Below, piece after piece: positions 49,552 through 62,765 of a DNA stretch of 64,000 nt (position 1 is its first letter; every line of letters begins with the position of its first letter). Location: NCBI GenBank assembly GCA_024650045.1, contig JANKMU010000003.1:50738-114737 (forward strand), written 5' to 3'. This DNA is from Mycoplasmatota bacterium. GTDB taxonomy: Bacteria; Bacillota_I; Bacilli_A; Acholeplasmatales; Acholeplasmataceae. The notes beneath the pieces were generated by a model, which saw only the letters and a list, made by a program, of their open reading frames with translations, did no database searches and had not been told where the DNA came from. The position numbers and the translations under genes were made by a program.

Positions 49552-49573
49552 TAAAAAAGGGTTTTACCCCTTT
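49552..49573 (-). terminator. Terminator of the Liv/acyl-CoA cluster
   Basis: Minus strand aaaggggtaaaaccctttttta. Confidence 0.65.
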
Positions 49574-50459
49574 AATCATTTATGAATTCTAAGATGTCTT
49601 TTGTCAATTGATCAGGTACATCTACCAACGGTGAATGACCACAATCATCATATGCAACATACTTAGATAATTTTTCTAATGCTTTAACATTTTCTAATAC
49701 CATATACTCGGGAACAACTATATCCTTCTTTCCCCATGTATGTAATATAGGACATTTGATCTTATTAATGTTTTGAGTTCCAGCATTATAGAAATTATGC
49801 TGATCTGACATATTTAAATTAGCAAGTGCCCAGTCAGCATCAATTAAATTTCTTTGCTTTAACGATTCATTGATCCATAATTTATTCTGTTCTTCTGTAG
49901 GTTTTTTTACTGTATAAATTGTCTTATCAAATATATAACTCATCACATCAAAATTCTTATTTTTTTGAGCTTCTAAAAGCGGAACAACTTGGATTGGATC
50001 TTTACCTAATTCTTCTGGTGACTCATAAACTTGTCCAACTAAAAATCCACCATTTTTATCCTTCTTAAATACTGGGTATCCCCGATGTGTTGTTGAGTTA
50101 ATGAGAATCATCTTTTCAACAGCTTTTGGATGAGCTGCAGCGAGTTCTAATGCTACACCACCACCTAGTGACCATCCAACAATAAAAGCTTTTTTTACAT
50201 CCTTTTCTTTCATAAATAAATAGACGTCTTCAGCAAGTTCTGACAAGCTAGATATTCTTCGATAATAACTTGAATCTCCATAACCTCTTAAATCTGGAGC
50301 GATGACTTTTATGTCTTTAGGCAATCTTTCAAATAGTGGTGTGAAGTGTTGACTTGATGAAAAGTTACCATGAATTAATAAAATTGTTTTTTCACCTTGA
50401 CCTTGCTCTAGATATCTAATGACTTCGCCATTCGATAAAACGATTTCTCTTTTTTCCAT
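49572..50459 (-). CDS. Alpha/beta hydrolase
   Basis: LIHGNFSSSQHF, nucleophile VGWSLGGGVALELA, CGHSPLVD. Confidence 0.88.
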   Translation of the reverse strand: MEKREIVLSNGEVIRYLEQGQGEKTILLIHGNFSSSQHFTPLFERLPKDIKVIAPDLRGYGDSSYYRRISSLSELAEDVYLFMKEKDVKKAFIVGWSLGGGVALELAAAHPKAVEKMILINSTTHRGYPVFKKDKNGGFLVGQVYESPEELGKDPIQVVPLLEAQKNKNFDVMSYIFDKTIYTVKKPTEEQNKLWINESLKQRNLIDADWALANLNMSDQHNFYNAGTQNINKIKCPILHTWGKKDIVVPEYMVLENVKALEKLSKYVAYDDCGHSPLVDVPDQLTKDILEFIND

Positions 50460-50476
50460 AAATCCTACCTACCTTT

Positions 50477-51298
50477 TTATATTTGATATTCTGATTCTAG
50501 TGTGTTGATAAAACCTAAAACTAAACTAACAAATAACAATGGTACTTCATACATTGATGCATGACCAACTCCAGGTAAAATAACAAGCTTGGAATTTTTG
50601 ATTGCCTGATGTAATTCTTTTTGATTTGCAATAGGTGTTAAGTAGTCTTCATCTGCAGCAACAATTAATGTTGGTGCAGTAATCTGATTTAAATCTTTTC
50701 TTGCATCATATGATTCAGCACTATTGGTTAATCTTTCCATTGCATCTAAAAATACAGGATTTGAAAAGATTGGTATTAAGTAAGCTTCACGCTTTTTCAT
50801 CCAGTCTAATCTCTTTTCATAATAGCTTGGAGAATAGATGACTGGAATGGTTGCTTTATAGTAGGTTGCTCCATCTCTTAGTTTTCCTATAGCATTCCAT
50901 TGTCTTCCAATTTCTTGAAGCCATGGCGATGTATAAGGTGTTGTATTAAACAAGACTAAACGATCAACAAGTTCAGGATGTTTAATCGCGAATAATATAG
51001 CAACTTCTCCACCATATGAAATACCAACTATATTGATTTTAGAAACTTTTAGTTCCTTTAATAAAGACTCAATAATATCAACTTGAATCGATTGAGTATA
51101 CTCGCTATTTTCAAGTTTATCACTTTGTCCTTGATCGATAAAATCCAAACGGATTAATTGGTTTTGATGTGTAAAACTTTTTAAGAAAGGTTCCCATGAT
51201 TTTGTAGACATCATAATGCCGTTTAAAATGAGTATAGGCGTTCCTTCTCCATTAACTTCATAATATATGTTTCTTCCTTTAAAATTCATTATAGCCAT
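50477..51298 (-). CDS. Alpha/beta hydrolase
   Basis: NIVGISYGGEVAILFA nucleophile elbow; GVGHASMYEVP. Confidence 0.88.
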   Translation of the reverse strand: MAIMNFKGRNIYYEVNGEGTPILILNGIMMSTKSWEPFLKSFTHQNQLIRLDFIDQGQSDKLENSEYTQSIQVDIIESLLKELKVSKINIVGISYGGEVAILFAIKHPELVDRLVLFNTTPYTSPWLQEIGRQWNAIGKLRDGATYYKATIPVIYSPSYYEKRLDWMKKREAYLIPIFSNPVFLDAMERLTNSAESYDARKDLNQITAPTLIVAADEDYLTPIANQKELHQAIKNSKLVILPGVGHASMYEVPLLFVSLVLGFINTLESEYQI

Positions 51299-51300
51299 GA

Positions 51301-52611
51301 TTACGCACCTATATACTCAAGTTTGATTGCTTCACGTCTTAGTTCATCTCTAAACTTTGGATGTGCAATGCTAATTAAAAGTTCTACACGTTCTGCAACA
51401 GATGTTCCTCTTAGTGATACACAGCCATATTCAGTAACAACATAATCAACATCAGCTCTTGATAATGTAACGGCTGCCCCTGGTTTCAAGAATGGAACAA
51501 TCTTAGATATTTCTTCTCTTTCACCGGTTTCAGGATTTTTAACATTAGCAGTTGAATAGAGTGTAATAAAACTCATACCACCTTTAGAATTTTGTGCACC
51601 AACAGCTGTATCACTTTGACCACCAGTTCCAGAGAATTGTTTATGTCCAATAGACTCAGATGCTACTTGTCCAGTAAGATCAACTTCTATGGTTGTATTA
51701 ATTGAAACTTGATTGTCATTAAGTCCAATGATTGCAGGATCATTAACATAGTGTCCATTAAGAATTTGAACACTTGGATTGTTATCGATAAAGTCATAAA
51801 GTTCTTGAGTACCTAAAGCAAAACAGCAAACATGTTTTCCGTTATGTGTTTTTTTCTTTAAACCATTAGCTGCACCAGATTTAACAAGATGCATCAAACC
51901 AGATGTAAACATTTCAGTATGAATCCCTAAATCTTTTTTGTGCAATAACGCATGTGCAACTGCATTAGGTATACCACCGATGCCAAGTTGTAATGTTGAA
52001 CCGTCTTTAATTTTATCTGCAATATAATTCCCAATCTTAATATCTTTTTCATTCGGTTCAATGTCAGGAAGCACTGGTGCAGGATAATCAACTTCAATAA
52101 AATAATCGACCTCACTCATATGAACTTCTAAATCACCAAATGTTCTAGGGAAATTAGGATTAATCTCTAGTATCGAAATATCAGCAAGTCTTAAAGCATC
52201 TTTTTCATAAACATTAGATAACGATAAAGAAACAAATCCATGTTTGTCTGGTGGTGTTGCAGTTCCTACAAATAGATTCGGTCTAGCGTGTTCGAATCGC
52301 TTACGACCAGCTAGGTGTAAATGATTGGGTATAAAGCTTATATTTCCGTTCTGATGAGCTTTTCTTAACGATGCTGCATAGAACCAGCTGTCAACTGAAA
52401 ATGATGATTTGTAAACAGGATTTGTAAAAAACTCAGCATTTTCAAATGGTAAACAATTTGTCACGCGAACGCCTCCTAATTCATTTGCACGTGTATGCAA
52501 AATCTTTAGGAACTCTTTTGGTTCTGCACCTGCCATACCAGATACAATAATATCGTTAGATTTAACGAGTTTGATTGCTTCTTGAGCAGTGATTGTTTTT
52601 GGAGATTTCAT
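51301..52611 (-). CDS. Acetyl-CoA hydrolase/transferase family CoA-transferase (4-hydroxybutyrate CoA-transferase-like)
   Basis: LQLGIGGIPNAVAHAL, FSGTGGQSDTAVGAQNSKGGMSFITLYST, VTEYGCVSLRGTS. Confidence 0.88.
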   Translation of the reverse strand: MKSPKTITAQEAIKLVKSNDIIVSGMAGAEPKEFLKILHTRANELGGVRVTNCLPFENAEFFTNPVYKSSFSVDSWFYAASLRKAHQNGNISFIPNHLHLAGRKRFEHARPNLFVGTATPPDKHGFVSLSLSNVYEKDALRLADISILEINPNFPRTFGDLEVHMSEVDYFIEVDYPAPVLPDIEPNEKDIKIGNYIADKIKDGSTLQLGIGGIPNAVAHALLHKKDLGIHTEMFTSGLMHLVKSGAANGLKKKTHNGKHVCCFALGTQELYDFIDNNPSVQILNGHYVNDPAIIGLNDNQVSINTTIEVDLTGQVASESIGHKQFSGTGGQSDTAVGAQNSKGGMSFITLYSTANVKNPETGEREEISKIVPFLKPGAAVTLSRADVDYVVTEYGCVSLRGTSVAERVELLISIAHPKFRDELRREAIKLEYIGA

Positions 52612-52640
52612 GTTATGCCTCTTTTCTTAATTTAAATTAA

Positions 52641-52668
52641 GATGAGGGGAGAGTTTCCCCTCCCCATC
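52641..52668 (-). promoter_or_regulatory. Intercistronic hairpin
   Basis: gatgaggggagagtttcccctccccatc between SBP and CoA-transferase genes. Confidence 0.55.
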
Positions 52669-52688
52669 ATTTTAACATTTTTTATAAA

Positions 52689-54431
52689 TTATCCTCTAAT
52701 TTGTCCGATAGTTTCGATTTCTCTAACTTTATCGAATGTGTTTGTAGTTGTATTGAATAACAATAATGACATTGCATCGATACCATGACGTTTACCGCCA
52801 CCGAAATCTACAGTACCACCCATAGGGATATTAATTGGAGCTGATTCCATTGCCTTGATAAATGATTCCCAAGTTAATGTGTCATCACCAACACGTTCTA
52901 AACCTTGAATAAATACTTTCGCTGCGATATAACCAGCGATTGCGAATGCATTAGCATACATATTATTTTTTGTTGTTTCATCTAAGAAAGATGCATTTGT
53001 AATTGCAGCAGCATAAGCAGCAACATCCACTTGCCCTGAGTCACTAAACACATCAACCCATGCATTTGTATAAATTGGGAAACCATAATCAGTATCAGGA
53101 TCAACAGCAGTTGGATCAGCATTAACATAAGATGTAAATACTGGAACTTCCATATCTAGAGTTTCCATAACACCAATAGCTGCCTTGAAAGGAGCTTGGT
53201 TACTTGCTACGATAACAGCAGATACGCCTTGAGAACGGAAGTTTTCAATCGCAGTACTTAATGCAGCTGTTTCAGCAGCAGCAAATGAACTATAAATAAA
53301 GTTATCATTAACGCCTAAAGTTCTTGCTTCAATTTCGATACCGTCTCTAATCGATACGCCATCATCAGTTAATGTATAAAGAACACCAATTTTTGCGTTT
53401 GCAGGAAGTGCTTCGTCACCAGCTGTACCATAAACTTCTTCATTAATAGCACGAGCAGTCATAATACGACCGTCTGTTAAATAAATTGGTTGAACTGGCA
53501 TAACAGGATCTAGTGGAGCTCTTTCGCTATATAATACGTTAACACCAGTTGCAGCATATACCATAGGTATACCAGCTTCTCTAATCACACCAAGAGTACT
53601 ACTTACTGTAGGAGTACCAAAATGTCCAACTAATGCAAAGACTTTATCTTCATTAATTAATTGTCTAGTGTTTGTTAAACCAACAGTACCATCGAATCCA
53701 TCGTCTCTATTAACATATTCGATTTCACGACCACCAATACCACCAGCTTCATTAACTTCTTCAAATGCAGCACGCATACCATAACTAAATGGTAAACCTA
53801 CAAATGATAAAGGACCAGCTAGAACTGCAGTGTTACCAACTTTAATCGTTGTATCAGTAATACCTTGAACTGTTACTGCACGTACTTCAGCATAGAAACT
53901 AGTTGTTACTTCTTCAAATGTTACGGTAACATCATAAATACCGACAACACCAGCAACAAATCCAGAAAGTGTATAATCACTTGATTCTAGAACTTCTTTT
54001 CTACCAGTATTGTAAATAACTTCTACAGATAAACCAGCAGGGTTGAATTCTTCTTGACGGTTGTAGATTTGTTGAGTAGGAACAGATAAGATGTTCAAAC
54101 CTAATGCTTCCTCTTCAGCTTCAGGATCAAATATAGCAACACCAAATGTTGCAGTTTCTCCTTCGTGAGTTACTGTTACAGTTTTTAATCCTGTAGTAGT
54201 TGAATCAAAACCAGTCACAGTATATTCTGAAGATGTCAATACACGATCAGTGCCATCTGTATAAATAACAGTGACAACCATACCAGCAGAACTTAAACCT
54301 TCACCAATTACGTATTCTACTTTCGTTGGTGGAGTTACAGTTATGCGGTCAACTCCGACTTCTGTTTCGCCGCAAGCAGCCAAACCGAATGTAGCAAGTA
54401 AAACGATAAATAAAGCTACGATTCTTTTCAT
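52689..54431 (-). CDS. Liv-type substrate-binding lipoprotein with two N-terminal Ig-like (Big_3-like) domains
   Basis: Lipobox GLAACG; two repeats ending TVTGFDSTTTGLKTVTVT / TLSGFVAGVVGIYDVTVT; Peripla_BP_6-like region from ~IKVGNTAVLAGPLS; ATG 54431. Confidence 0.88.
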   Translation of the reverse strand: MKRIVALFIVLLATFGLAACGETEVGVDRITVTPPTKVEYVIGEGLSSAGMVVTVIYTDGTDRVLTSSEYTVTGFDSTTTGLKTVTVTHEGETATFGVAIFDPEAEEEALGLNILSVPTQQIYNRQEEFNPAGLSVEVIYNTGRKEVLESSDYTLSGFVAGVVGIYDVTVTFEEVTTSFYAEVRAVTVQGITDTTIKVGNTAVLAGPLSFVGLPFSYGMRAAFEEVNEAGGIGGREIEYVNRDDGFDGTVGLTNTRQLINEDKVFALVGHFGTPTVSSTLGVIREAGIPMVYAATGVNVLYSERAPLDPVMPVQPIYLTDGRIMTARAINEEVYGTAGDEALPANAKIGVLYTLTDDGVSIRDGIEIEARTLGVNDNFIYSSFAAAETAALSTAIENFRSQGVSAVIVASNQAPFKAAIGVMETLDMEVPVFTSYVNADPTAVDPDTDYGFPIYTNAWVDVFSDSGQVDVAAYAAAITNASFLDETTKNNMYANAFAIAGYIAAKVFIQGLERVGDDTLTWESFIKAMESAPINIPMGGTVDFGGGKRHGIDAMSLLLFNTTTNTFDKVREIETIGQIRG

Positions 54432-54505
54432 AAAATTTTTCTCCTCTTTCTTTTGCCTTATTGGCAAGTTATTATATTATCTTGTTTCTTGGAAACAATT
54501 AAAAC

Positions 54506-55279
54506 CTAATGTGATGAACCTAAATAAGCATTGATAAGTTGTTCGTCGTTGAGCAACTCGTTTCCAGTGCCTTCTGAGATGATTTTGCCTAACTCTAAAA
54601 TATAAGCATAATCAGCAATTTTAAGCGTTTGATAAGCATTTTGCTCTACGATTAAGATGGTTCGTCCTTCTTCCTTAATCCGCTTAACAATTTCAAAGAT
54701 ATCTTTTACAATCAGTGGTGCAAGACCTAATGATGGTTCATCTAATAATAAAACTTTCGGATTTCCCATCAATGCTCTACCAATGGCTAACATTTGTTGC
54801 TCACCACCTGATAAAGTAGAAGCTTGTTGTTTCTTTCTTTCTCTTAAGATTGGAAAATATCCATAGACTTCATTAAGTAATTGATTGATTAATGTTTTTC
54901 TTGTTATTTTTTCAACCTTTTCATGACCATCTTTATCTTTAGTTGTTTTATTTATGCTCTTAAGTGAGTAAGCACCAACTAATAAATTTTCTTCAACTGT
55001 AAGACCATTTAAGATCATTCTACCTTCAGGAGCTTGTACAATACCTTTAGCAGTTATTCTAAAGGGGTCTTTATTCTCAATATTTTCTCCATCAAAGGTA
55101 ATATGCCCTGATTTAACTTTTACAACACCAGATATAGAACGAATAGTTGTTGATTTACCTGCACCGTTAGCACCTAATATAGCAACAATACTTCCTTCTT
55201 CAACATCCATATTGATACCTTTGACTGCGCGAATAATACCGTAATCAATAATTAAGTCTCGTATTTCTAAAATTGCCAT
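54506..55279 (-). CDS. livF: ABC transporter ATP-binding protein, LivF family
   Basis: GANGAGKSTTIRSISG, LSGGEQQMLAIGRALMGNPKVLLLDEPSLGLAPLIV. Confidence 0.93.
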   Translation of the reverse strand: MAILEIRDLIIDYGIIRAVKGINMDVEEGSIVAILGANGAGKSTTIRSISGVVKVKSGHITFDGENIENKDPFRITAKGIVQAPEGRMILNGLTVEENLLVGAYSLKSINKTTKDKDGHEKVEKITRKTLINQLLNEVYGYFPILRERKKQQASTLSGGEQQMLAIGRALMGNPKVLLLDEPSLGLAPLIVKDIFEIVKRIKEEGRTILIVEQNAYQTLKIADYAYILELGKIISEGTGNELLNDEQLINAYLGSSH

Positions 55280-55280
55280 A

Positions 55281-56714
55281 TTATTCGCCTCCTAAATAAG
55301 CTTCTTGGACAACAGGATTTGTCTTAATCTCTTTTGGAGTTCCAATGGCTAACTTTTTACCAAATGATATTGCACAGATGGTATCACATAGTTCCATAAC
55401 TAAACCCATATCGTGTTCTACTAAGAAGATTGTACAGTCATACTCTTTTTGAATCTTTCTAATTGTTTTAACTAACTTTTGAGATTCAAGGTCATTGAGT
55501 CCAGCTGCTGGTTCATCAAGAATGATTAAATTTGGATTTGACATCAATGTTCTTGCAAGTTCAATTAGTTTTAAAACACCATAAGGTAGACCGATTGGAT
55601 AAAAATCTTTATAAGCTATCAGTTCAAGATCAGTTAAAATTTTAATGGCTTTAGCTTTTAAAATTTCATCCTCGCGTTTAAATCTCGGATTGTGAACTAA
55701 ATGTCCAAAGAATCCTGTTTGATATTGTCTGTGTGATGCAACTAATAAGTTATCTAAAATCGATAATTCCCATATGAGTTCAACATTTTGGAAAGTTCTT
55801 ACAATACCGTGTTTAATAACATCGTGAACTTGATATTGGGATAAATCAACAACATCATTTGTTTTGTCACGATATAACATCCTACCTCCAGTTTGTTTAT
55901 AAAACTGTGTAATACAGTTAAATACAGTTGTCTTACCAGCACCATTTGGTCCGATGAGTCCAAATATTTCACCTTTTTTAACGTCAAATGATAATTCATT
56001 AACTGCTATAAGACCACCAAATTTCATTGTTAATCCTTCAAGTTTTAAAATGACGTCATCATCCATTTCCAGTAAAGGGAGATCTTTTTGTAGATCTTTT
56101 TTCTTTTCTATAGTTTGGATAAGTTTTTGATTAAGTAATTCATTTGCTTTATTAATCTTTTCTTGTTGTTTACTTAATTTTTCATGATCTTCTTTGATGA
56201 GTTGTTGTTCATAGGTTTGATATTTTAACGCTAACCTTTGTTTTTCAGTTTCAAAGAATTTTCTATTTTCTTCAATTTCTTGATCTGAATAGCCTTCAAT
56301 CGTATATTTGTTAAATATCTTTTCTTTGTTTTCGTTATACTTTTGACTTAGAAATTCTAAATTTTCTTGATGTTTTTGCTTAAACTGTTCTTTTTGGTCT
56401 GGATGTTTTTTTGTTTGTCTTTTAAGTGTTTGATCAATTGCTCTTTTTTTCCAGTAAAACCAATGATCTAGTTTATCGATTTCTTCTTTTGAGAATGTTT
56501 TTAAATAATCATCTTTTGATAATGTTTTACTTTCTAGTTCAATTAAGTAAGACTGATGTTGATCTTTTAGTTCTTGAAGTTTTTTGTTTCTTTTTTCTGT
56601 ATATTTCTCACCTAATATTTCAGGATAAGATAAGTTGTTTTCAATCTTTTGTCTAATATTCTCAATTTTTTGATTGAGTAACTTGTTTTCAAGTGTTGAT
56701 TTAATCTTTGCCAT
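55281..56714 (-). CDS. livG: ABC transporter ATP-binding protein, LivG family, with long N-terminal coiled-coil extension
   Basis: [21 protein letters not shown]...[18 protein letters not shown] from residue ~220; residues 1-218 charged helical. Confidence 0.93.
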
Positions 56715-57777
56715 AACGATACTCCTTCCATGATGTCATTAATTTTTTGTAGAGTCGTATAGTCTTTAGGTTTAAATCTTTGAAGAGTCTGATTAACCCA
56801 CCAGGGTAAAACATAACAACTAGTATGATTAAAACACCATTAATAATATATGAAGCATTACCATAGGTTTGAAAAAATGGAATACTCTTTAAGACAAGTT
56901 GATCAAATCCAAAAATGATAAATGTACCTAAACCAACACCCCAAATAGATTTTGAACCTCCAATGACAATCGCTGCTAAAATATTAAGTGATAAGGCTAA
57001 GTTCCATAAGTTTGGAATGGTTGATCTACTATAAGACATATAAAGCATTCCACCAATAACGGCTAGTACGGTTGCGATTACAAATGTTAATAGTCTATAT
57101 TTTAAAACACTTATACCCATTGCTTGTGCAGCTGATGTTGAGTTTTTAATCGATAACATCGCTCTACCTGTTGGACTATTAACTAAGTTAACAACAGCAA
57201 TCATGGTTAAGATTAGGAATAAAACTAAGATGTAATAGACCATATGTTCTCTAAATAAAATTCCAAAGATAGAAAATCTTTCAATTTGAAATCCAAGTAA
57301 CCCATTTGTAATAGGTGTTGCAAATTTAAAGAATTCAACTAAGACTTCTGATAAACCTAAAGTAATAATGGCTAAGTACATACCCTCTATCCTAAGCGAT
57401 ATAAAGCCTACAATGGTTCCCAAGATGATTGCTATCACTATACCCATGATAAATGCAATCAATAATGGTAGACCTAGTTTGCCTAAGCTAAAGGCTACTA
57501 CATAAGAGCCAACACCAATAAATCCTGCTGTTCCTAGTGATGCTAATCCAGCATAACCAAGGAGTAAAGTAAAACCTAATCCAACAATCATATAGATCCA
57601 CATATTTGCTAATATATCAACAGCTGATGGTCTAATCAATCCAGCAGTACCTAAGACTTGAACTAAAACCATTAAGAAAGCTGCAACAAAGATACCAAAG
57701 AATGGATGTTTCGTAAACTGAATCAATTTTTGGTGTATTTTATTTTCTTTTTTTGACTTATATTTTTCAAGTATCAT
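56701..57777 (-). CDS. livM: Branched-chain-amino-acid-type ABC transporter permease, LivM family
   Basis: Multi-TM, GYAGLASLGTAGFIGVGSYVVA, GRAMLSIKNSTSAAQAMGISVLKYRL. Confidence 0.93.
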   Translation of the reverse strand: MILEKYKSKKENKIHQKLIQFTKHPFFGIFVAAFLMVLVQVLGTAGLIRPSAVDILANMWIYMIVGLGFTLLLGYAGLASLGTAGFIGVGSYVVAFSLGKLGLPLLIAFIMGIVIAIILGTIVGFISLRIEGMYLAIITLGLSEVLVEFFKFATPITNGLLGFQIERFSIFGILFREHMVYYILVLFLILTMIAVVNLVNSPTGRAMLSIKNSTSAAQAMGISVLKYRLLTFVIATVLAVIGGMLYMSYSRSTIPNLWNLALSLNILAAIVIGGSKSIWGVGLGTFIIFGFDQLVLKSIPFFQTYGNASYIINGVLIILVVMFYPGGLIRLFKDLNLKTIRLYKKLMTSWKEYRYGKD

Positions 57778-57779
57778 AA

Positions 57780-58709
57780 CTACACCTTCTTCGCTATCTT
57801 TTTCCCAAATAAACCAACAGGTTTAATTAAGATAAGTAATAATACTAAAATATAAACAATAGCATTTGCCCATGTATTAGAAATGAATTGCCATGCTAAA
57901 ACTCTTGCAAATGGAATAATGATGGCTGCAATCACTGGTCCACCAAATGATGAAAATCCACCTAAAATCGCTGCTAAAAACCCATTTACTTGCAGTCCTA
58001 TCATCATATCAGGTGCTAACGTATAAACAGTAGGTGCATAAAGTGCTGCAGCTAATGCTCCAAGACCACCCGCAATACCCCAACTCATTGCAGTAATGAA
58101 CTTCGTATTGACACCCATCATACTCGCGACAACTTCATTAGATGCAGTTGCGCGTACACCAAGTCCCCATTTTGTATATTTAAGCATGACGAATAATACA
58201 ATTAAGACCACAGCAGCAATAATAATAGAAATCAAATTGTGACTTGGAATAAACCAAGGCACTGTCCCACCAACATTGACTCTAAATACTTTTGTTGATA
58301 GAAATCTCGGTGTTGCTAAAGGGAAGATTCCAAAAACAATTGGTAAAATACCTGAAATAACTAATATAATTCCCATGGTAATCATTTGTTTGGTTACAGC
58401 ATTTGAATACTTAGCTTTACGAATAATGAATACATCAATAAAGATACCAAATAGAAATCCAACAATAATCCCAATAAGAATCGATACAATTAATAACAGA
58501 ACCGCACTTATATTTGGAAATTGAACGATAAAGAATTTACTAAATAGTGAGGTGATCGTATATGCTGAAAACATCGCTATCGAACCTTGTGCAAAGTTCG
58601 TCGTAAACGATGTTCTAAAGATTAATACAATTGCCATGGTAACAAGTGCCAAAAATGCAGCACCGGTTAATCCCTGGAAAAACATTGATAAAATTTGCTG
58701 TAAAGTCAT
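57780..58709 (-). CDS. livH: Branched-chain-amino-acid-type ABC transporter permease, LivH family
   Basis: TNFAQGSIAMFSAY, GVRATASNEVVASMMGVNTKFI, AAILGGFSSFGGPVIA. Confidence 0.93.
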   Translation of the reverse strand: MTLQQILSMFFQGLTGAAFLALVTMAIVLIFRTSFTTNFAQGSIAMFSAYTITSLFSKFFIVQFPNISAVLLLIVSILIGIIVGFLFGIFIDVFIIRKAKYSNAVTKQMITMGIILVISGILPIVFGIFPLATPRFLSTKVFRVNVGGTVPWFIPSHNLISIIIAAVVLIVLFVMLKYTKWGLGVRATASNEVVASMMGVNTKFITAMSWGIAGGLGALAAALYAPTVYTLAPDMMIGLQVNGFLAAILGGFSSFGGPVIAAIIIPFARVLAWQFISNTWANAIVYILVLLLILIKPVGLFGKKIAKKV

Positions 58710-58710
58710 A

Positions 58711-59736
58711 TTAACCCCACCTTATGATATTTGCAGCCCAAACATAGCCAATACCAGCTGCTAACATACAAACGATGCTACCATCTTTAACTTGTCCAGT
58801 TTCTAGAGCTAAATGAAGTGATAATATTTGATCTATTTGTCCAATATGACCATAATCCTCTAAATAAATGGATTGATCATCTGATAAACCTAATTCATTA
58901 AGCATCGCTTCATGACCTGAACGCTTAATATGAAGAATATCTAAATAATCAATATCTTTTCTTGTTACCTTAGATTTTCTAAGTGCTTCATCAATACATT
59001 TAAACCAATTAGGCATAGAAACTTCATTTAAGCGATTTTTCATTTTAACAGGATTCATTAATCTTAAAGATTTTTTGGCTTCACCAATATTTTCAGGCGT
59101 AATTGGATTGCATAAACCCCCAATTTCAACACCTGCAGTTCTTGATAAAGAACCATCTGAAATCATATGAGATCCTAAAAGTAAGTTTTTATTGTGGTTT
59201 TTCTTTAATATAATCGCACCGCCACCAGCACCAAGGTTATACATCATTGACATATCTTTATCAGTATAGTCAATAAAATCCCCATTGCGGTATCCGCCAA
59301 CAATCATAATGACGTTGATTTCATCATCTGCAATCAACATGTCTTTAGCCATTTTCATTGCCGATACAGTTGTACAACAACGGTTTTGTACATCTATACC
59401 CCAAGCATTCAAAGCACCAATACGATCTTGAATATATAAAGCTGAAGTTGTTAATGGATATTCTTTCCATTCTTCAGTGATACTTAAAATAACATCGATA
59501 GTTAATGGATCAACACCAGTATTTTTAAGTGCATCAAGTGCTGCTAACGCACCCATCTCTTGGGTTCCATCGTTAGGAAGATTTCCTGGAACAACTTTTT
59601 CTCTAATTCCTAATTTGTCAATCACAGCTTGTTCACTCCAAATACCTTTAGTCGCATCAGCAATTTCACTTGCTTGCATTCTACCTTTTGGTAAATAGAT
59701 TCCTGTTCCGACGATTCCTACATTGTTTTGATTCAC
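58711..59736 (-). CDS. Thiolase-fold, KAS III (FabH)-like enzyme
   Basis: VGIVGTGIYLPKGRM, DVQNRCCTTVSAMKMA (catalytic Cys region), C-terminal LHIKRSGHEAML and DYGHIGQID. Confidence 0.85.
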   Translation of the reverse strand: MNQNNVGIVGTGIYLPKGRMQASEIADATKGIWSEQAVIDKLGIREKVVPGNLPNDGTQEMGALAALDALKNTGVDPLTIDVILSITEEWKEYPLTTSALYIQDRIGALNAWGIDVQNRCCTTVSAMKMAKDMLIADDEINVIMIVGGYRNGDFIDYTDKDMSMMYNLGAGGGAIILKKNHNKNLLLGSHMISDGSLSRTAGVEIGGLCNPITPENIGEAKKSLRLMNPVKMKNRLNEVSMPNWFKCIDEALRKSKVTRKDIDYLDILHIKRSGHEAMLNELGLSDDQSIYLEDYGHIGQIDQILSLHLALETGQVKDGSIVCMLAAGIGYVWAANIIRWG

Positions 59737-59767
59737 AGGGAACCCCTTCTTTCTTTTGTATTTTTAG

Positions 59768-60490
59768 TTATAAACGCATGCCGCCATTAACGTTTAAAGT
59801 TTGTCCGGTAATATAAGATGATTCAGTAGATGCTAAGAATAGTGCTGCATTTGCAATTTCTTCAGGTTGCCCGAGACGTCCAAGCATTGTCATTTTTGCA
59901 AAACTATCTAATAGTTCTTGTGGAACTGTTTTTAAGATATCAGTCATAATATATCCAGGAGCGATTGCATTAACTCTCACGTTCGCACCTTTTCTTGCAA
60001 ACTCTTTAGCCCATGTCATTGTTAACCCAATAACGCCTGCTTTAGTAGCTGCATAATTAGCTTGACCAATATTACCAAAGATACCAACAACTGATGATAT
60101 ATTAATAATTGAGCCATATTGATTGGTTTCCATTAATGGACCAAATAAACGTGTCATGTTAAAGACACCTTTTAAATTAACATCAATAACAGCGTTCCAT
60201 TGATCATCTGTCATTTTTCTTGTCATAGCATCACGTGTAATGCCTGCATTATTTACTAAAATATCAACTTTACCATATTTTGCTACAACGTCATCATAAA
60301 ATTTTTGTACACCTTCTACATCAGTTACGTTTAATTTATAACCAAATACATTTTTTTCACTATATTCTAAATCGCTCATGTCAGCAGCAATGACTGTTGC
60401 ACCTTCATTAGCAAAAGCTATTGCGATTGCTTGACCGATTCCTTTTGCTCCACCAGTAATGACAGCAACTTTATTATCTAATCTTCCCAT
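59768..60490 (-). CDS. SDR oxidoreductase (FabG/PhaB-like)
   Basis: VITGGAKGIGQAIA, NNAG, YAATKAGVIGLT, ITGQTLNVNGGM. Confidence 0.95.
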   Translation of the reverse strand: MGRLDNKVAVITGGAKGIGQAIAIAFANEGATVIAADMSDLEYSEKNVFGYKLNVTDVEGVQKFYDDVVAKYGKVDILVNNAGITRDAMTRKMTDDQWNAVIDVNLKGVFNMTRLFGPLMETNQYGSIINISSVVGIFGNIGQANYAATKAGVIGLTMTWAKEFARKGANVRVNAIAPGYIMTDILKTVPQELLDSFAKMTMLGRLGQPEEIANAALFLASTESSYITGQTLNVNGGMRL

Positions 60491-60513
60491 ATCTTTTCTC
60501 CTTTAGTTTTTTT

Positions 60514-61722
60514 CTAAACTTTTTTTAAAATAACTGCAGTACCCATACCGCCACCAATACAAAGACTTGCTAAACCATAGTTTATACTAGGTTGTCTAAG
60601 CATTTCATGAAGTAAGGTAACCATAATACGATTTCCACTTGCTCCTACAGGGTGACCTAATGCAATAGCACCACCATTGACGTTAGTTTTTGACATTAAA
60701 TCTTCTTTAGTTATATCAAATGCATCTGTTAGTTCTTTAACAACACCTAATGATTGAACAGCAAATGCTTCATTTAACTCAAAGAGTTCGATATCTTTAA
60801 TATCTAATTGAGCTTGTTTTAAAGCTTGTTTAATAGCAGGTGTTGGACCTAGTCCCATAATGGAAGGATCAACACCACCTTGTCCAACACCAACGATTTC
60901 AGCTAATGGCTTTAAATTATATTGCTTAACAGCATCTTCACTTGCTAAAATCATAAAACTTGCTCCATCATTAATACCTGATGAACTACCAGCAGTTACT
61001 GTACCATCTTTTTGAAAAGCAGGTCTTAAAGTTCCTAATTTTTCTAAAGATGTGTTTCTATTAATATATTCATCAGCATCAAAAATAATATCAGCTTTTC
61101 TAGTTTTAATTAAAACAGGAACGATTTCATCTTTAAACTTACCTTCATCTTGAGCTTTTGCTGCTTTTTCTTGTGAATTAATGGCAAAGGCATCTTGTTC
61201 TTCACGTGTAATATTGTACTTTTGTGCAATATGTTCAGCAGTTACACCCATGTGATATCCTTCAAATGCATCAGTTAATGCATCATAGAGCATATGGTCT
61301 CTTAAAGGTTGTTCACCCATCTTTAATCCCGATCTTACTTGAGCAGGTACTAAGTAAGGTGTACCACTCATTGATTCAACACCACCAGCAACAACCAAAT
61401 CATGGAAACCTAATGCGATATTAGAAAAACCATTCATTACTGCTTTCATGCCACTACCACATACCATATTTACACCATATGCAGGAACAGTTGAAGGAAT
61501 ACCGGAATAAATTGATATTTGTCTTGCGACACCTTGTTTCAAACCAGCTGGTAAAATATTACCAACTAAAACTTCATCAATCTTGCTTACATCAACTTTA
61601 GATTCCTCAAGAAGAACCTTTAAGACTTGTGAACCAAACTCAGCGGGATGCATTGAAGCCAATGTACCCATAAAAGAACCGATTGCACTGCGCTTTGCGC
61701 CAACTACAAAAACTTTTTTCAT
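60514..61722 (-). CDS. Thiolase (acetyl-CoA acetyltransferase family)
   Basis: VNMVCGSGMKAVMNG active Cys, NVNGGAIALGHPVGASGNRIM, CIGGGMGTAVI. Confidence 0.95.
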   Translation of the reverse strand: MKKVFVVGAKRSAIGSFMGTLASMHPAEFGSQVLKVLLEESKVDVSKIDEVLVGNILPAGLKQGVARQISIYSGIPSTVPAYGVNMVCGSGMKAVMNGFSNIALGFHDLVVAGGVESMSGTPYLVPAQVRSGLKMGEQPLRDHMLYDALTDAFEGYHMGVTAEHIAQKYNITREEQDAFAINSQEKAAKAQDEGKFKDEIVPVLIKTRKADIIFDADEYINRNTSLEKLGTLRPAFQKDGTVTAGSSSGINDGASFMILASEDAVKQYNLKPLAEIVGVGQGGVDPSIMGLGPTPAIKQALKQAQLDIKDIELFELNEAFAVQSLGVVKELTDAFDITKEDLMSKTNVNGGAIALGHPVGASGNRIMVTLLHEMLRQPSINYGLASLCIGGGMGTAVILKKV

Positions 61723-61737
61723 TTTTACTTTCCTTTC

Positions 61738-61753
61738 TTAAAAGCGTTTTCAA
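61738..61753 (-). promoter_or_regulatory. Possible cre (CcpA-type) site
   Basis: Minus strand TTGAAAACGCTTTTAA, one mismatch from WTGNAANCGNWNNCA, in thiolase 5' UTR. Confidence 0.35.
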
Positions 61754-61843
61754 TAACTTTGTAAAAAATAGATTACACAAAGTACCAAGAATACCATTGG
61801 CTTAGACAAGATATTCTTTATCGTGTAACTCGAATTTCATAAC

Positions 61844-61859
61844 ATGAATAGTTGTTCAT
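61844..61859. promoter_or_regulatory. Palindrome, candidate TetR operator
   Basis: ATGAA-TAGTTG-TTCAT just downstream of predicted thiolase -10. Confidence 0.45.
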
Positions 61860-61870
61860 ATTTCAGTAAT

Positions 61871-61899
61871 ATTTTATCATAGTGTATAAATAATGTCAA
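61871..61899 (-). promoter_or_regulatory. Putative promoter of the thiolase-Liv cluster
   Basis: Minus strand TTGACA, 17 nt, TAAAAT. Confidence 0.6.
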
Positions 61900-62159
61900 T
61901 GATTTCTATAACGTTTTATGAATAATTGTACACCTTATGTTAAAACAGTATAAATTTTTAGATGACTCGAAAAAATTAAATAAAAGATATGAGAAGTAAA
62001 TAAAGCAAAATTAATTCAAATTTGCTAAACCTTTGTTATACAAAGTCTAATCTAAAACAAATAGATTGATATTGTTTATAAGTTAAAGACGTTTTTTGCT
62101 TCAATATTTTTTCATTGTTTTTTTCTAGTGTTTGGTATACACTTATATTAGGTGATAAC

Positions 62160-62765
62160 ATGAATCAAACGAATTATCGTCTTCCGAAGCGTAAAGACGG
62201 ACAAAAAACATTTGATAACATTATAGAAACTGCAAGAAAACTGTTTTCAAAAAATGGATATCAAGCAACTTCAATTAACGAAATTATTGAAAAATCACGT
62301 ATTGCTACGGGGACATTTTATCTTTATTTTGACGATAAATTCGCATTGTATTCATACTTATTAAACAAATACCGCAAGTCCATTAGAAAAGCAATCTCTG
62401 AAGGTATCAAATACGCAGAAACACGATATGAAAAAGAACGTTTAGGGATTAAAGCATTTTTAAAGTTCGCCTGGGATGATCCATTAGCATACCGAATCAT
62501 TTGGGAATCTATGTTTGCAGATAAAGAACTTTTTAAAGAGTATTATCAAACATTTAGTCACGATTATGTTAGACAATTAAGTCATGCTGTAAATGATGGT
62601 GAAGTTAGAGAAGATATAGATCTAGAAACATTATCATATATCCTTATGGGAATCTCGAATTTCGTTGGTTTGCAAGTATTATTTAGAGAAACATTAACCG
62701 ATGCTGATTTAGATAGAATCACTGAAAACGTTATGAAATTATTAAAATCAGGTATGTTTAAATAA
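62160..62765 (+). CDS. TetR/AcrR-family transcriptional regulator
   Basis: ETARKLFSKNGYQATSINEIIEKSRIATGTFYLYFDDKFALY HTH; ATG 62160 preceded by aggtga. Confidence 0.93.
   Translation: MNQTNYRLPKRKDGQKTFDNIIETARKLFSKNGYQATSINEIIEKSRIATGTFYLYFDDKFALYSYLLNKYRKSIRKAISEGIKYAETRYEKERLGIKAFLKFAWDDPLAYRIIWESMFADKELFKEYYQTFSHDYVRQLSHAVNDGEVREDIDLETLSYILMGISNFVGLQVLFRETLTDADLDRITENVMKLLKSGMFK

Follow-up and report, generated by a model that had tools for sequence, protein, structure and literature searches.

A conserved N-terminal extension, predicted to be helical, on the LivG ATPase of an importer operon in Acholeplasmatales and related Bacilli

ABC importers are textbook machines, and N-terminal additions are rare on their ATPase subunits. 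In the 64,000-nucleotide stretch of the Mycoplasmatota bacterium contig JANKMU010000003.1 analyzed here (the window), a stop-free minus-strand open reading frame encodes a LivG-type ATPase of 477 amino acids with a long N-terminal extension, raising the question of where this extension came from and what it contributes to the importer. In Pfam, ABC_tran (PF00005), with Walker A and Walker B, matches residues 239-403 (83 bits; cut-off, 25), and the BCA_ABC_TP_C motif (PF12399) is found at the C terminus (35.4 bits; cut-off, 25.5). The top NCBIfam model, the E. coli-type LivG equivalog NF008449, scores 261.2 bits, under its cut-off of 362, and spans residues 221-476, thus placing the core far from the N terminus. 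The ABC signature region of this LivG (positions 55551-55589 of the window) has the YGxLK form common to the LivGs of this operon, and the signature of the canonical LivG L153/L027 is LPYGKQRKLEIAR.

A preliminary description of the locus had reported an uninterrupted, in-frame extension of about 218 residues before a LivG domain starting near residue 220, rich in K, E, and Q, low in hydrophobic residues, and helical in appearance. The coordinates were right, and the composition of residues 1-217 bears out the rest: K, E, and Q make up 42%, K, R, D, and E make up 40%, and the hydrophobic set AVILMFWC makes up 26%, with a net charge of +6, three prolines, and two glycines. Residues 1-218 matched no family in Pfam (E, 0.01) or NCBIfam (E, 0.001).

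Table 1. Features of the extended livG gene and its operon, in window coordinates
Feature	Coordinates	Strand	Basis
N-terminal extension of LivG, residues 1-218	56061..56714	-	ORF; no Pfam/NCBIfam family; kept in relatives; dN/dS
LivG ATPase core, residues 219-477 plus stop	55281..56060	-	ABC_tran 83 bits, BCA_ABC_TP_C 35.4 bits
Predicted helix 1 (residues 2-62)	56529..56711	-	AlphaFold2
Predicted helix 2 (residues 67-136, break near 104)	56307..56516	-	AlphaFold2; conservation
Predicted helix 3 (residues 144-209), short linker to ATPase domain	56088..56285	-	AlphaFold2
Shine-Dalgarno sequence GGAAGGAG for livG, within livM 3' end	56722..56729	-	7 nt upstream of first ATG
TetR-type regulator, divergent	62115..62765	+	TetR_N; adjacency to operon conserved
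Thiolase, first gene of conserved operon	60514..61722	-	Named from translation; conserved position
FabG/PhaB-type acetoacetyl-CoA reductase	59768..60490	-	NF009466 over cut-off
KASIII-like synthase (PRK06840)	58711..59736	-	NF005308 473 bits, cut-off 315
LivH permease	57780..58709	-	BPD_transp_2
LivM permease	56701..57777	-	BPD_transp_2
LivF, partner ATPase	54506..55279	-	NCBIfam LivF model is top match
LivF loop insertion SINKTTKDKDGHEKVEKITR, about residues 108-127	54899..54958	-	Approximate borders
LivK-type binding protein, Big_3 Ig-like domains	52689..54467	-	Peripla_BP_6, Big_3
CoA-transferase (butyryl-CoA:acetate type)	51301..52611	-	TIGR03948 top match, below cut-off
Alpha/beta hydrolase	50477..51298	-	Abhydrolase_1
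Intracellular short-chain-length PHA depolymerase (PhaZ)	49572..50459	-	NF050089 356 bits, cut-off 300

AlphaFold2 predicts three long helices in the extension, in keeping with its helical appearance. The full-length model, built from an alignment of 8 sequences of which three carried the extension, had block pLDDT values mostly of 76-93 and a pTM of 0.55, and when the extension was modeled alone, the helices came out nearly unchanged (mean pLDDT, 89.8; pTM, 0.59). Long charged helices tend toward high pLDDT, so these values do not establish the packing, which the pTM of 0.55-0.59 likewise leaves uncertain. Heptad-like hydrophobic periodicity reached significance only in helix 3 and the latter half of helix 2; in helix 1 it did not. 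Within helix 2, residues are better conserved the closer they lie to the predicted ATPase-proximal end (Spearman between conservation and distance, -0.47), a trend toward the base that is absent from helices 1 and 3. A Foldseek search with the extension alone found no specific PDB fold, the best match being a designed three-helix bundle (E, 0.0047), followed by generic coiled coils, and the 50 PDB matches listed for the full-length model consisted entirely of ABC ATPases and complete ABC transporters, none specific to the extension. The extension is thus predicted to be a rod-like arm of three long helices whose packing is uncertain.

Used alone as a query, the extension matched 16 of 60 sampled relatives and therefore is not specific to one assembly. 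The nearest named relative, Peloplasma aerotolerans M4Ah (Acholeplasmataceae), has an extension 73% identical to that of the window, with a core identity of 96-97%. Among 88 Acholeplasmataceae genomes searched for LivG, most LivG open frames have 447-530 residues. An order-level sample added LivGs whose extensions measure about 100 residues and LivGs without any; a class-level sample yielded extended LivGs in a few further families and frames of about 250-300 residues in most, which bears out the earlier statement that LivGs normally are without such an extension; and a phylum-level sample added unextended operon-type LivGs and one extension of about 417 residues. With few exceptions, the LivGs of this operon type are extended in Acholeplasmataceae and in several related families, by 69 to about 417 residues. 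A fused gene peculiar to this assembly is refuted by orthologous extensions in most members of the genus and in related families. The longest extension seen, also helical in appearance, belongs to an operon-type LivG of genome G620 (locus L206, L221:8560-10596); no enzyme genes turned up in the L221 stretch. In another genome (L178, G226:C103), a LivG open frame of about 614 residues occurs with no separate LivM match and is perhaps a LivM-LivG fusion.

HHalign comparisons of the 215-residue group with other extension forms gave 99.8% for the 210-residue form (f24_210), 93.8% for the 260-residue form (long260), 96% for L028, and 94.7% for L175. Most pairs among these forms fell at 92-99.8%, the matches of L028 and L175 to the 260-residue form were weak, and reversed-sequence controls stayed below 3%. 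For L068 and the shortest extensions, the comparison gave no placement. Judging from these alignments, the long forms are homologous across families. In a tree of LivG cores, the operon-type LivGs form a single clade whose earliest branches are six mostly clostridial rows with no or very short extensions. Extensions are present in nearly all of the other 57 rows, the deepest included, so that one old gain in the Bacilli-type branch of the operon, followed by shortening or loss, is the simplest history. A nested clade (L039, L061, and L058-060) has lost most or all of the extension, and its LivG and LivF cores lie inside the extended clade. Several cross-family placements on the tree imply horizontal transfer of the operon. 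Two genomes, G003 (C6 and C10) and G008 (C71 and C95), carry two operon-type LivG genes each, on different branches of the tree, which also suggests horizontal transfer.

The genes surrounding livG bear on the substrate. All five subunit genes of the LivHMGFK importer are adjacent, in the order, after a divergent TetR gene, thiolase-FabG-KASIII-LivHMGFK-CoA-transferase-alpha/beta hydrolase-PHA depolymerase (window 49572-62765). In LivK, two Ig-like Big_3 stretches precede the ligand-binding domain. The enzymes of the operon suggest 3-hydroxybutyrate compounds, rather than branched-chain amino acids, as the probable substrates, and from the gene content we infer that the operon probably serves to take up 3-hydroxybutyrate or its oligomers from outside the cell and break them down. 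The operon is present across Acholeplasmatales, other Bacilli families, and clostridial metagenome-assembled genomes. The extended LivG lies within this gene set, sometimes split or rearranged, in almost all loci examined, and LivGs outside the operon (L153 and L179) are without the extension. Clostridial versions of the operon, together with L066/L182, have the same enzymes and an unextended LivG; a separate coiled-coil gene was sought in operons lacking the extension and was not found. Searches of the literature turned up neither an extended LivG nor this operon, and the main text of the Peloplasma paper (PMC11122141) contains neither hydroxybutyrate nor ABC transporter terms.

Among the 12 operon proteins, an interior indel separating loci with and without the extension was found only in LivF (the runner-up was LivK, with a balanced accuracy of 0.83). 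In the LivF of the window, VGAY and EVYGYFP are separated by about 20 extra residues, and across loci the insertion, in the helical subdomain, measures 7-20 residues. In a first sample, all operons whose extension reached about 100 residues had it, and no others did. That perfect correspondence fell with a held-out set, in which the forward rule was kept (the LivF of L206 has the insertion) and the reverse rule was broken: L207/L220 combines a 33-residue extension with a like insertion, whereas L226, L227, L229, and L231 pair an unextended LivG with a LivF insertion that occupies this site but is different and longer, at about 35 extra residues. The link is therefore one-way. In the final count, scored by segment lengths and with L067, cut off at a contig end, set aside, the insertion was found in 51 of 51 loci with an extension of about 100 amino acids or more and was absent from 15 loci with none or fewer than 75; L207, L227, and L229 were unextended with an insertion, and L226 and L231 are two further such loci. 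The nested clade with little or no extension left also lacks the insertion. Fisher's exact test gave a p of 5e-12 with L067 counted as unextended, a value that overstates the evidence because the loci are related and the tree holds about two concerted changes.

These observations support the view of the extension as a conserved accessory domain of the motor of one importer. As to its action, we tentatively favor, at somewhat below an even chance, a singly gained, selected, operon-confined helical rod that acts as a brace or gate when the LivG-LivF dimer closes. The point at which the rod would depart from LivG is the first beta strand, and ABC ATPase dimers generally bring this strand of one subunit close to its partner's helical subdomain, across an ATP site. 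Given this geometry, a contact between the LivF loop and the rod's base is plausible, and we regard it as probable. Such a contact would brace or gate dimer closure, tuning the import of a substrate that is probably 3-hydroxybutyrate or its oligomers. Control of ATPase dimerization had been one of two roles raised in the preliminary description; it is consistent with the LivF insertion that tracks the extension and is weakened by the exceptions to that rule. A more specific version, in which the rod would bind a LivF loop that co-evolved with it and gate closure in answer to a signal from the cytoplasm, for example a catabolic enzyme or an intermediate of the pathway, thereby coupling uptake to breakdown of the substrate, strikes us as unlikely.

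The other role raised was that of a cytoplasmic scaffold for enzymes of the operon. In this reading, the rod would tether soluble enzymes (PHA depolymerase, CoA-transferase, FabG, and thiolase) to the importer and channel substrate. The extension is confined to the LivGs of this catabolic operon, and exposed charged helices are typical docking surfaces, both of which fit such tethering. However, the enzymes are the same in the clostridial and Acholeplasmatales operons whose LivG is unextended, indels tracking the extension occur in no enzyme, and the rod varies in length from 69 to about 417 residues. Because the insertion that tracks the extension lies in LivF, an arm acting on the LivG-LivF motor is favored, and we consider scaffolding doubtful.

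It is less probable still that the extension serves self-association or anchoring, in which, in a cell lacking a wall, a coiled coil would link neighboring transporters or fasten the importer to a filament, membrane patch, or polymer particle. Its helical, coil-like, fast-evolving sequence and its conserved length class and architecture would suit this role, as would its peak frequency in Acholeplasmataceae, to which the wall-less Peloplasma belongs. Against it, the AlphaFold models point to helices folding back inside a single chain, a Pfam scan gave no phasin-family match, and no PHA synthase was detected in this genome, in a search with a weak control for class III/IV enzymes.

The degree of constraint on the extension bears on whether it might be a tolerated spacer, a low-constraint helical tail kept since it is harmless. 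Within the genus, its identity drops to 23-35%, that of the core being far higher, its lengths vary, and one clade has lost it, all as expected of a spacer. Between the window and P. aerotolerans, however, the extension has a dN/dS of 0.16 (dN, 0.17; dS, 1.08) and no indel (the LivG core has a dN/dS of 0.03), showing that it is under purifying, protein-level selection. Residues Y30, L57, Y70, R91, and R99 are near-invariant, and the best kept also include W88 and F/Y154. The best-conserved block, YWKKRA..Q..KR (residues 87-99), lies in helix 2, after a TLSxxxY turn (residues 64-70). With homology detectable across families and the link to LivF also against it, a spacer is as improbable as self-association.

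Translation of LivG from its first ATG, extension included, is well supported. The Shine-Dalgarno sequence GGAAGGAG upstream of that codon is strong, a 19-mer, GGAAGGAGTATCGTTATGG, is identical at the livG of about ten genomes, and livM overlaps livG by 14 nt. An annotation error, in which translation begins at an internal ATG and the extension is never made, is scarcely credible: an ATG does exist at residue 217, right before the core and close to where the preliminary description had proposed looking for an internal start, but it has no Shine-Dalgarno sequence, its Met is absent from most relatives, the upstream site is strong and conserved, and the reading frame of the extension is under purifying selection. 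In L072, L075, L077, L142, and other loci of high GC content, apparently long N termini were discounted, the frames reading back over livM without a Shine-Dalgarno sequence.

A rod that ranges from none to more than 400 residues within one operon type provides a natural series for testing the function of the arm and a good test case for the regulation or tethering of an import motor. The uptake-and-breakdown operon for 3-hydroxybutyrate-type compounds, found in wall-less, free-living Acholeplasmatales and related Bacilli, is apparently undescribed.

The extended LivG is a lineage-specific form of a well-known ATPase, and its regulatory reading is unproven. With the LivG/HAAT family (PF00005 plus PF12399; MJ1267, PDB 1G6H) it shares the ATPase core, Walker A, the DEPAAG Walker B, the C-terminal BCA_ABC_TP_C motif, and an operon with LivH, LivM, LivF, and LivK; it differs in its 218-residue helical extension, in an NCBIfam LivG score of 261 against a cut-off of 362, and in its signature, LPYGxLK rather than the LPYGKQRK of canonical LivG L153/L027. 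The operon PhaZ passes the curated cut-off for intracellular scl-PHA depolymerase (NF050089), but here the enzyme is tied to an importer in a genome in which PHA synthase was not found. Smc and MukB arms, which were Foldseek neighbors, consist of long antiparallel helices joined to an ABC ATPase, an arrangement that the predicted arm would share; the likeness is generic (best E, 0.0047, with low TM-scores), and the arm of the window LivG is N-terminal, not inserted within the ATPase. MalK and MetN are type I importer ATPases whose extra regulatory domain is C-terminal and folded. Although that of the window LivG is an N-terminal helical rod and a relationship is undetectable, it shares with them an additional domain on the ATPase subunit that could plausibly control closure of the dimer.
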